The position numbers and the translations under genes are program-made. The notes beneath the pieces were generated by a model, which did no database searches, was not told where the DNA came from, and saw nothing but the letters and a program-made list of their open reading frames with translations. From Arabidopsis thaliana (Eukaryota; Streptophyta; Magnoliopsida; Brassicales; Brassicaceae), in NCBI RefSeq assembly GCF_000001735.4, contig NC_003070.9, positions 20,135,971-20,199,970 of the forward strand: 64,000 bases of DNA. The letters run 5' to 3'. Shown here in pieces: positions 33,507 to 39,190 of this stretch. Every line of letters starts with the position of its first letter. Position 1 is the stretch's first letter.

Positions 33507-33970
33507 GATTGTGGTTACAGTTTGATTTAAGCGAGAGAGTTTAAGAGCTAGTGTAACAAAGAACTAGCAAGAAAACTGAAACATCCATTTTTCTTGTTTA
33601 GTAATAAAACAATCAACCTTATTAAGTCAATTAGAAGCTTTACTGGACCATTTCCATGGGTCCAATATAGCCCATTAGTATTGTCTCACTCAGTTTCCGT
33701 AGCCCCAATTTAGCCCACTTGGCTTCTTATTCGGTGTTAAAACATAAGATTTAAGACCATCTGAGAAAAATCAAATGACAATTTTGTAGGAATTTCACTG
33801 TATTGTCTTAAACACGTACTTAAAAGACTCATACTGGCATGTACTTATGGTAATTTTTACAATGACAACAAATTTAAAACAGGTTATATAAAATTGGCTC
33901 TTTATTAGTAATAAACTAATAATTAACACGACTAACCACAAAAACAACATAAACCTTAACATATGCATTA
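33507..33970. other. Intergenic: MVP1 3' flank
   Basis: 3' UTR-like sequence to about 33620, then AT-rich DNA. TTGGCTCTTTATTAGTAATA near 33893 begins the block that is repeated behind ESP. Confidence 0.4.
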
Positions 33971-34695
33971 AGCTGAATTGACTGCATGTATAGAAGTAGA
34001 TATCATCAGCACGGCCGTTGGTCGGAAGCTTTCCGCCATGTACGAAGATACCTCTTTTTCCATAGATGGTGGCAGTGGTGTAGGCAGTGCCGGGTTAAGT
34101 AAAAAGGCGGACAATGCGACCGCCCTATATCCGGGAAATTTTCTTTAAAAAAAAAAAATGAGCACAATATTTTTTTTTGTATATACCAAAGAGGTACAAA
34201 AAAAAAATTATACATGCAAAAGAGACACAAAATATATATGTTTAAATTTTTTGCTATAAGGCACATAAATGGTATGAGCCGGCACTGGGTGTAGGTGGTC
34301 CAACCACGTGGCATCTCCGGTTCATTTCCTCCTCCAAACTTCTCCCAGACTTGTCTCAGTGTTCAACGCATCACCTTCGGTAGACAACGTCCCTGGACGG
34401 CTGGACCTTAATGTGCCTTTGGGTCTCGCCAGATCTCACCTCCAAATATTATTATATGTTTTCCCGCTGTTGCATATGCAAACACGCTCATTGCTGAAGG
34501 CTTTGCTCCCGTACTCTCTACTTCTGTGTCTGTCAACTTTCCAAAAGCGGGATCCAAGAATTGCACAGCATTAGACTCGTAGTCACTTTTCCCTCCAGGC
34601 AAACTTGAAGTCACAAACCCATAAACCACCCAAATCATGACTTGCGCCACAAGGAATCCCGCACCTCTACCCAAACTCGTAGTCACAAATTTCAT
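33971..34695 (-). pseudogene. Partial, broken copy of ESP interrupted by a hAT element
   Basis: The - strand matches the C-terminal half of [56 protein letters not shown] and, beyond the inserted element, RGWT and LPTN-like sequence down to the end of the gene. About five small changes break the frame, and everything upstream of the fourth kelch repeat is missing. The 3' flank (TTAAGCTGAATTGAC) is duplicated as well. It is a tandem duplicate that lost its 5' half. Confidence 0.85.
34077..34295. mobile_element. hAT-type MITE (203 bp) inside the ESP copy
   Basis: Terminal inverted repeats CAGTGCCGG (from 34085) and CCGGCACTG (to 34287) are flanked by a perfect 8-base duplication GGTGTAGG at 34077-34084 and 34288-34295. 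Removing the insert plus one copy of the duplication restores alignment with ESP (35130-35150), which proves the boundaries. No coding capacity. Confidence 0.92.
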
Positions 34696-35024: not shown

Positions 35025-37915
35025 TTAAGCTGAATTGACCGCATAGAAGTAGAGATCATCAGTTCGCTCGTTGGTCGGAAGCTTTCCGCCATGCATGAGG
35101 AGGCCATTCTTTCCATCGACAGTGGCAGCAGTATAGGCAGTCCAACCTCGTGGTATGGCTGGTGCACCTTCTTCTCCCAACTTTTCCCACACCAGTGTCT
35201 CGGTGTCCAACGCATATCCCTCATTGGACAGCGTCCCGGGACCATAATGCCCATTGAGATCAGGCCATACCTCACCTGCAAATATTATTATATACTTTCC
35301 CACTACCGCATGGGCAAACACGCTCCTTGCGGAAGGTTTCGCTCCTGTAGTCTCTACTTCGGTCCACTTTTTGGAAGCCGGATCATAGAATTGCACAGCA
35401 TTAGACTCATAGTCATCTTTGCCTCCGGGCACAATCGAGGTCGCAAACCCATAAACCACCCAAATCTTCCCTTGTACCACAGCGAATCCCGCTCCTCCTC
35501 TTTTCTCGAAGTTATCTCCTGGATCCGGTAGCTGAGCCCATTTCCCATCAGCAATGTTATACGCCTCGATTGTCCTGAACCGCGTGGGAGTATTCATAGT
35601 ACCGCCTTTGCTCACCCCACCGAATACATACACATGGTTTTCATCCGAAGCCATCGAATGGAAAGTACGAGCCTCGGGTCCTCCCACCTCATCAAGCTTC
35701 GTCAGGAATGTCCACTCGGATGTCACCGTATCGTAGGAGCGAAAGTTTTCGAAGTTGCGGTTCTCATCGCGGCCTCCAAAGATATAGATCTTAGTTCCCA
35801 CGGCCACCATGCGCACGCCTAAGCAGGATACAGTTGGGGCGTCTCCTTTGGGTTGAGCGATTGACCAAGTTTGAGTGTTGAAGTCAAAGACGTAGAGGTC
35901 TTTGTCGATGTGTTTGTTTGGTGTTAACTCGCCGCCGAAACTGTAGAGCTTGTCTCCGACCGCGGCTATGCCGTGTGAACTTCTAGGTCCTGGTCCCGTT
36001 CCTCCTTTCTGCCCCACCTATTTATCACCAACATAAATCATACGATGATAATGCATGTGTTTCTTTAATTTCCTTTGATAATTATGTAACACTAGATTTT
36101 AATCCGCGGTACACCGCGGAGACAATTCATTTTTTAAAATTAATATATATAAAAATCTGTAAATTATTTTATAGTTTACCATTGTTACTAAGTAACGTTC
36201 TGTCAAACCCGTCCTGCCAAACCCGTCCAAAAAAAAAAACTATTTACTTTATTAATATTGATCTTATTTATAATATGTTTATGAATCATTGTCAAAATAT
36301 TTTAGTCGTTGCGGGACGTTGAACCCACATATTTTTCGCCAATTGGTTAATATATGTTCATTCTTAAAATTTCGAATCACAAAATATGACGAATTTTTTT
36401 TTGAGATCTTTTTAAACTCTATATATTATATAATGATGTTAATTATTTTTGATAGATTAAACTTTTTATAAATTCAAATATTAATAATGTTTTATGAAGT
36501 TTAAATATACAAATAATAATATTTTAAAAAATTAATATTTTTTGCCTTTTAGGTAATGATATAATAACTCTAAAAGCAAAAATTTAGAAGATTTAAATCT
36601 TTAAATAAATATTTTCATGTCTAAATAATTAATGTGAAGTTTATGCTAATTTTAAGGGATTGATGTGAAGTTTGTTTGGATTAAATTTGATTGATAATGT
36701 GATTGACAATTTAAATTAAAAATTTAATGTAAAATTAATTATTTTGGAAAAAATATTTAATGCTAATGACATTGAGTTGTAAATAAGTCCAACTCTAAAA
36801 TTTATTTGATAAAATAGCTGCAAAAATGTATATATAGATGTTATATTAAAAAAACTAGATTCAACGCTTATTAGTTAATGGCTGTGCACAGTACTAAATA
36901 GAATTATTAATGATTAAAAATAGAAGTTTCAATTTTTTGGTCAACTATATGGAAACCTTTTAAATACTATGCTTAGGTGTTCTACTTAATTCAAGTATCA
37001 TCAACTTTTCCTCTTACGTCTATGAACACTAAATTTCTAAAACACTGAATACTCAAATATCTAAAATTTAATTTCCGTACTTGACCCCAAAACAAAGTAC
37101 AGTAGATTCTTTAAAATATGTTTACCAACAAATATAACATAAAATTATAAGAATCTAATTCAAAATTTTAAAGCATTAATATAACAATAATGGTATTCTC
37201 TTAAAAGTAATAACATAAAATTCAAACTTCCAAATCTAAAATATTCATATCCAATCAACATAAAATTTAGAAATATATAACTATAAGATAAGTCTAAAGT
37301 TGAAAAACTATATTATATACTAATCTTGTTCTAAATAATAATTTAAATAACATTACATGTTGTTAAAAATATGTCTATTGCAATAATAAATTCGAATTTA
37401 AACCGATCTGTATGAGGGTTTGAATATACATGATTGGTAATTTTAATTTTAAAGAAATATTTATTCAGATATCCGATCCTTAATTATCTCTTTAATCAAT
37501 ACCATGATCTAACTTGGAAAGCATATAAAAGTTATATTATAGCTTATCAAAAAAAAAACAAGTAACGACTATCAACAATATTCAGCCTTCGTGATGATAT
37601 ATACGTACTATTATTTAGCCTTTGTGATAGAATACTACGTACTGTTATTTAGTGGCAAACTGGCAATAACCAAGTTAACCTAGATAATGTCTTTTGTACA
37701 AAATTATGAACTTTCGAAAAGTTGAATTATCAATTTAAATAGAATAATCCGGGCGTTGGTATGTAGTTCTACCGGCTTAACCTCCATCTACTCATATGAA
37801 AAGTATGGAGGTCCCAAATTCGAGCACCACATCGGAGAAGGGACTTATTTGAATTGAAACTTTAATTAACTAATTAAAATATCTTGATCCACTGGCCTTG
37901 CAAAGTCGGAGCCAT
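35025..37915 (-). CDS. ESP: Epithiospecifier protein ESP (2 exons; atypical intron)
   Basis: Exon 1 is 37915-37883 ([11 protein letters not shown], 11 codons); exon 2 is 36014-35025 ([10 protein letters not shown]... to AVNSA), 330 codons with the stop excluded. Together this is 341 aa, the length I know for ESP. Kelch repeats run through exon 2 ([40 protein letters not shown]). ESP is a cytosolic/nuclear iron-dependent specifier that diverts myrosinase products of glucosinolates from isothiocyanates to nitriles and epithionitriles. The exon 1 end is followed by AT (AAG|ATATTT), not GT, while the acceptor is a normal AG. The 1.87-kb intron contains a Helitron. A TATAAATA box lies at 37996-37989. 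Confidence 0.88.
36092..36838 (-). mobile_element. Non-autonomous Helitron, copy 2, in ESP intron 1
   Basis: The 3' end on the - strand is CCGCGG TGTA CCGCGG, then ATTAAAATCTAG, followed by host T (36092-36119 on the + strand). The 5' end is TCTATATATACATTTTTGC, ending at 36838, and keeps the canonical TC start; host A precedes it. The length is 747 bases. It is the same family as 30702-31584 and has the same orientation, with an internal deletion of about 130 bases relative to that copy. No coding capacity. It lies in the same strand sense as ESP and 74 bases from the exon 2 acceptor. Confidence 0.85.
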
Positions 37916-38363: not shown

Positions 38364-39190
38364 ACGGTGTGTAGGCATAACCAAAATCTAACTGTAACGG
38401 TATTTTGGACCGTAACCGAACCGTTTATTAACCGTAACCCAACCGTAACCGTATAAAACGGTTAATAACCGTAACCGTTAACAGTGAAAATAGATCTGTT
38501 ACGGTTAAGAAAATATACTAACTGTAACCGTTAATTAACCGTAACCGTATCAAAACCGTACGGTTAATCGTATTTTCAAAACCTTAAAATATAGTTATAA
38601 TAGTGTATAAATAAATAATTATTTCACTAAAATAGTAACTTAAATTGTTTAATATGTCCACTACTATGATCGAAGTTACTCCACTACTCTTTTTACCATA
38701 AATCAAATTATAAGTAGTTCATATTATTATTATTTATACTCTTGAAACTGTTTCTTAATGTTCACAACATCTTCTCATTAGTATTGTTTTTGTTTGGAAA
38801 ATGTAATTAATTCAATCATTATAATTATGATCATTAATTTTTTTATTCATTGGTTTACTTAAAGAAAAATAGATAACTGATTCACTATAAATATTTGAAA
38901 CACAAAATCACGTAAAATAAATATTATTTGATATATCACTATTTATTTATTTTATTATAAAGTTTAAAAAATATAATATTTTGTCTTATATATTAACTAT
39001 ATCATAATTATCAAATAACCGTAACCGTATGTAACTATAACCGTATTTAACCGTAACCGTATTTAATCGTAATCGTTTTAACCGTATATATAACGGTTAA
39101 AATTAAAGTTAAAAAAAAATTATAACCATAACCGGTGGTTAATAAACCGTAATCGTAATAACCGTAACTGTAGTCATGCCTAACGGTGTG
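38364..39190. mobile_element. hAT-type element rich in AACCGT motifs (811 bp)
   Basis: The element spans 38372-39182. Ends are TAGGCATAACC on the left and, inward from the right, TAGGCATGACT; the flanking 8-base duplication ACGGTGTG is perfect (38364-38371 and 39183-39190). Both terminal regions are packed with TAACCGTAACCGT-type repeats on the + strand; the middle is plain AT-rich DNA. No transposase reading frame. The perfect duplication suggests a relatively young insertion. Confidence 0.9.

Follow-up and report, generated by a model that had tools for sequence, protein, structure and literature searches.

Does the first intron of the A. thaliana ESP gene, which begins with AT instead of GT, mark a natural loss of gene function? 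The question arises in a window of 64,000 nt, the whole stretch of DNA analysed, which covers positions 20,135,971-20,199,970 of NC_003070.9 in a single A. thaliana assembly (GCF_000001735.4), taken here to represent the accession Col-0. The gene is situated on the minus strand of the window and is At1g54040, which codes for the epithiospecifier protein (ESP). The explanation considered probable here is that ESP has naturally lost its function in a Col-0-type genome because the opening base of intron 1 changed from G to A.

The coding part of exon 1 (37883-37915, minus strand) is composed of 11 codons from the ATG to the residues WIK, with the letters ATGGCTCCGACTTTGCAAGGCCAGTGGATCAAG read from 37915 to 37883. 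Exon 2 (35025-36017, minus strand) possesses 330 codons and a stop, and is stop-free up to that point. The joined exons give a protein of 341 amino acids, and the division into 11 and 330 codons that the original prediction had proposed was confirmed on the genome. Intron 1 between them (36018-37882, minus strand) is 1865 nt long, with AT at the donor (37881-37882, minus strand) and AG at the acceptor (36018-36019, minus strand). Exon 1 ends at 37883 with ...TGGATCAAG, the intron bases from 37882 read ATATTTTAATTAG, and the 3' end of the intron is ...GATAAATAG. When the ESP mRNA was fitted to the genome, the intron could only be placed with the ends AT-AG, GA-TA or AG-AT, none of the three starting with GT, which upholds the earlier reading of an AT start. 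The AT donor is present in the assembly. The gene identity proposed earlier also stands, as the joined protein fits PDB entry 5gq0, 'Epithiospecifier protein'. The exon 2 protein equals residues 12-341 of this entry, the sole mismatch being a GTG codon (V) printed as M, and residues 1-124 of the joined protein are all identical to residues 1-124 of the entry (124 residues compared), including residues 1-11 from exon 1. A 17-residue peptide across the exon 1/exon 2 junction is present in 5gq0 and backs the junction position. On this comparison the gene codes for a full-length kelch protein matching the solved ESP.

To compare the donor with related genes, the genome was searched with the 330-residue ESP protein. 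The 10 matches represented ESP itself, six full-length paralogs, two pieces of an adjoining pseudogene and one distant kelch protein (L041). The donor comparison took in the six full-length paralogs (L033-L038), left out L041, and used junctions placed by eye. These six are presumably NSP1-NSP5 and At3g07720. NSP1 was also among the PDB matches (5gqt). At the homologous boundary GT directly follows W-x-K/Q in all six, whereas ESP keeps the intron position after W-x-K/Q and shows AT there. L037, the paralog closest in form, has the donor TGGTTAAAG followed by GTAAAG and an acceptor in which ...CAG is followed by GTGGGTCAAAAAGGA. Since GT is found in six of six full-length paralogs, the ancestral ESP donor was presumably GT as well, and the present AT is most likely derived, the +1 G having been replaced by A, as expected of a splice-donor loss allele. 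The bases flanking the donor were scored with an unfitted donor matrix, with +1 and +2 left out and no distinction of GC from GT. By this measure the ESP flanks reached 4.35, against 2.23-3.96 in the paralogs (L033 2.23, L034 3.78, L035 2.23, L036 2.23, L037 3.94, L038 3.96). As the ESP flanks score above all six paralog donors, the site resembles a good donor with one base lost.

Two other explanations of the AT were tried and rejected. A U12-type intron was set aside on two signals, both poor against the U12 consensus, in agreement with the original prediction: the donor shows 5 of 9 matches to the ATATCCTTT-like consensus, and the best match to the TTCCTTAAC-like branch site, whose end is 29 nt away from the acceptor, shows 6 of 9. 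The major spliceosome tolerates A at +1 mainly with C as the last intron base. The last base of ESP intron 1 is G, the intron ending in AG and not AC. A transposon edge as source of the AT was rejected because the stretch 36842-37880 of the intron has no match elsewhere in the genome, in a search blind to simple repeats and to words of very high frequency. This origin is also countered by the Helitron-like element of the intron, which begins (36838) 1044 nt downstream of the donor.

On retention of intron 1 the open reading frame ends after IF, with 13 codons in total, at an in-frame TAA (37876-37874). Downstream, no GT or GC occurs before 37870. Five downstream GTs were translated and all gave the 13-residue frame; the remaining downstream sites keep it too, because the TAA precedes the first of them. 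The codon in frame immediately 5' of exon 2 is also a stop. The earlier claim that no other GT avoids an in-frame TAA holds downstream of the junction and is correct in the main; to it can be added that exon 1 has a GT at 37892 along with GCs at 37896, 37901 and 37912. With the native acceptor, GT 37892 gives a frame-shifted frame of 24 amino acids, GC 37896 one of 17 amino acids, and GC 37901 no in-frame product. GC 37896 (CAAG/GCCAGT, 37895-37896, minus strand) has the top score from -40 to +150 of the junction, 4.30 against 4.35 for the ESP flanks on the unfitted matrix, and does not keep the frame when joined to the native acceptor. Nine pairs of an exon 1 site with an AG in exon 2 keep the frame, the best-scoring one using GC 37896. 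Joined to the AG at 36006-36005 (minus strand), this site gives its longest product, an in-frame ESP of 332 residues in which nine residues around WIK are missing. The first ATG of exon 2 keeps the frame and falls at residue 81 (M81), so that a transcript without exon 1 could yield a fragment of 261 residues.

The proposed course of events is as follows. In the common ancestor of ESP and its paralogs the donor would have been GT, and replacement of the G by A at +1 in ESP would have removed it. Normal splicing of ESP would then be strongly reduced, since the combination of A at +1 with G as the last intron base is expected to block the second step in the major spliceosome. The transcript would be retained or mis-spliced and would code for a peptide of 13, 17 or 24 residues, or at most for an N-truncated protein from M81. 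Poor or no splicing of ESP intron 1, as foreseen in the original prediction, is a sound prediction from the sequence.

A further lesion is found upstream. A hAT-like element of 811 bp (38372-39182, no strand assigned) occupies the ESP promoter, 457 bp from the ATG. It has inverted ends (TAGGCAT...) and an 8-bp duplication ACGGTGTG at each flank; three registers one base apart were possible for its ends, and the register taken gives TAGGCAT at either end. Nine other copies compared show 83-93% identity to it, some over part of the length, and many shorter matches exist besides. ESP determines whether nitriles or isothiocyanates are formed from glucosinolates, and Col-0 has been called a natural ESP knockout (PMC5131009). 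A non-functional ESP is scored for Col-0 in PMC4396512, and no ESP protein was detected in it according to PMC9659865, which cites Kissen 2012. Accession accounts for nearly half of the variation in ESP expression among field-grown accessions (PMC6749069). The element at 38372-39182 is probably the upstream Col-0 insertion of PMC5131009, the relevant passage of which is without size or position. The allele probably carries two hits, a promoter insertion giving low transcript and a donor loss giving little correctly spliced transcript. As published work names a promoter insertion as the cause, and one is found here too, the role of the donor is left as that of a candidate: the AT donor is a second candidate lesion and not the demonstrated cause of the missing ESP activity in Col-0. 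Of the original prediction, the gene, the exons, the AT, the lack of a usable donor further downstream and the exclusion of U12 have stood, while its proposal that the donor explains the ESP loss of Col-0 is consistent with these results and goes no further.

Several observations weigh against donor loss as the explanation. PMC5131009 puts the missing Col-0 ESP down to an insertion that lies upstream of the coding region. ESP transcript was measured in Col-0 with primers within one exon, an esp mutant was altered in reactive oxygen species (ROS) and indole-3-acetic acid (IAA) compared to Col-0, and Miao and Zentgraf 2007 is cited for ESP action in Col-0 (PMC9659865). Taken together, the transcript, the mutant phenotypes and the cited action imply some ESP protein in Col-0, and the same paper argues for traces of it. 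ESP/ESR is also cited as an active negative regulator of WRKY53 (PMC6409740). Published work uses a full-length model, At1g54040.2 (PMC6930892), which may rest on a spliced cDNA, perhaps from Col-0. The A at the donor may also be fixed in A. thaliana and tolerated.

Among the rival explanations, a promoter insertion that alone silences ESP in Col-0, with the AT donor as later neutral decay in a silent gene, is a possibility of some weight, though a doubtful one. The 811-bp hAT-like element with its 8-bp target duplication 457 bp upstream of the ATG fits this view, as does the otherwise intact coding sequence, with 330 codons without a stop. The Col-0 transcript speaks against it, being measurable and going up under severe drought (PMC9659865), so that the ESP promoter is not dead. 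A sequencing or assembly error at 37882 is the least probable of all the explanations; it would need a single base in one assembly to be wrong, and both ESP exons are otherwise intact. If splicing shifted to GC 37896 and to an acceptor within exon 2, the product would be a slightly shortened ESP. The score of this GC, close to that of the ESP flanks, and the 332 amino acids in frame with the AG at 36006-36005 favor it, but two non-native sites are required together, the native acceptor gives a frame-shifted 17-amino-acid frame, and the score comes from an unfitted matrix blind to GC versus GT. This outcome is considered highly improbable.

The last rival supposes adequate splicing of the AT-AG intron, as an unusual but working intron of the major spliceosome that is fixed in A. 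thaliana. The GT of all six full-length paralogs, the poor U12 signals and the AG end of the intron, where AC is the partner that tolerates A at +1, oppose it. So does the undetected ESP protein of Col-0 (PMC9659865). On the other side, the remaining donor context is strong on the unfitted matrix, and a gene model yielding AtESP is in use (PMC6930892). In Landsberg, ESP is highly expressed, being second among the ten most frequent unigenes of a cDNA library with 541 reads, and these reads cover nearly the full length (96.8%) of the 1370-nt mRNA model (PMC2907694). On balance such an intron is unlikely. A related proposal, in which the species-fixed AT-AG intron works in the major spliceosome and its splicing efficiency tunes ESP output between accessions, is judged quite unlikely. 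A loss-of-function allele through the G-to-A change at the donor is retained as the preferred explanation; the Landsberg expression counts in its favor too, as do the non-functional score of Col-0 (PMC4396512) and the undetected protein (PMC9659865).

Other features were noted around the gene. ESP intron 1 contains a multicopy Helitron-like element of 747 bp (36092-36838, minus strand). It starts with TC after A, ends with CTAG before T and has a GC-rich palindrome close to its 3' end. Among 12 other copies compared, six are full-length with 93.9-96.4% identity and six are in pieces. Directly downstream of ESP is a fragmentary ESP-like pseudogene (33936-34667, minus strand). Its two pieces, with in-frame stops, show 75% and 79% DNA identity to the 3' part of ESP, and are split by about 200 bp (34086-34287) matching two other sites of the same chromosome at 72-74%.

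No description of this donor base was found in the excerpts of the ESP literature searched. Judging by its title and by citations of it, Kissen et al. 2012 deals with ecotype-dependent ESP splicing and may already describe this donor. A literature search for the base rate of AT-AG introns in Arabidopsis listed a single paper, on Ganoderma. A scan of bacterial and archaeal genomes for orthologs, a collection not meant for plants, gave one distant kelch match (L055, in Algoriphagus), which was not used. The exact donor pattern with A or G had no match in viral contigs, a collection likewise not meant for plants.

Should the Col-0 allele combine a promoter insertion with a dead donor, transcript assays confined to a single exon of ESP (PMC9659865) would be uninformative on protein, and claims of ESP/ESR action in Col-0 would call for a check of the splice junction. 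The allele can be set beside natural G-to-A donor-loss alleles in plants, in which a one-base change likewise removes the +1 G of an otherwise good donor. It is unlike them in having a promoter transposon as well, and its splicing effect is a prediction. The closest known system is the Col-0 natural knockout itself (PMC5131009; Lambrix 2001 and Burow 2007b cited there), in which the gene is the same, Col-0 is described as lacking ESP activity, and an upstream insertion is reported, as one is found here. In the passage describing it the insertion is named as the Col-0 cause and a donor change is unmentioned, whereas the allele in this window possesses the AT donor too.
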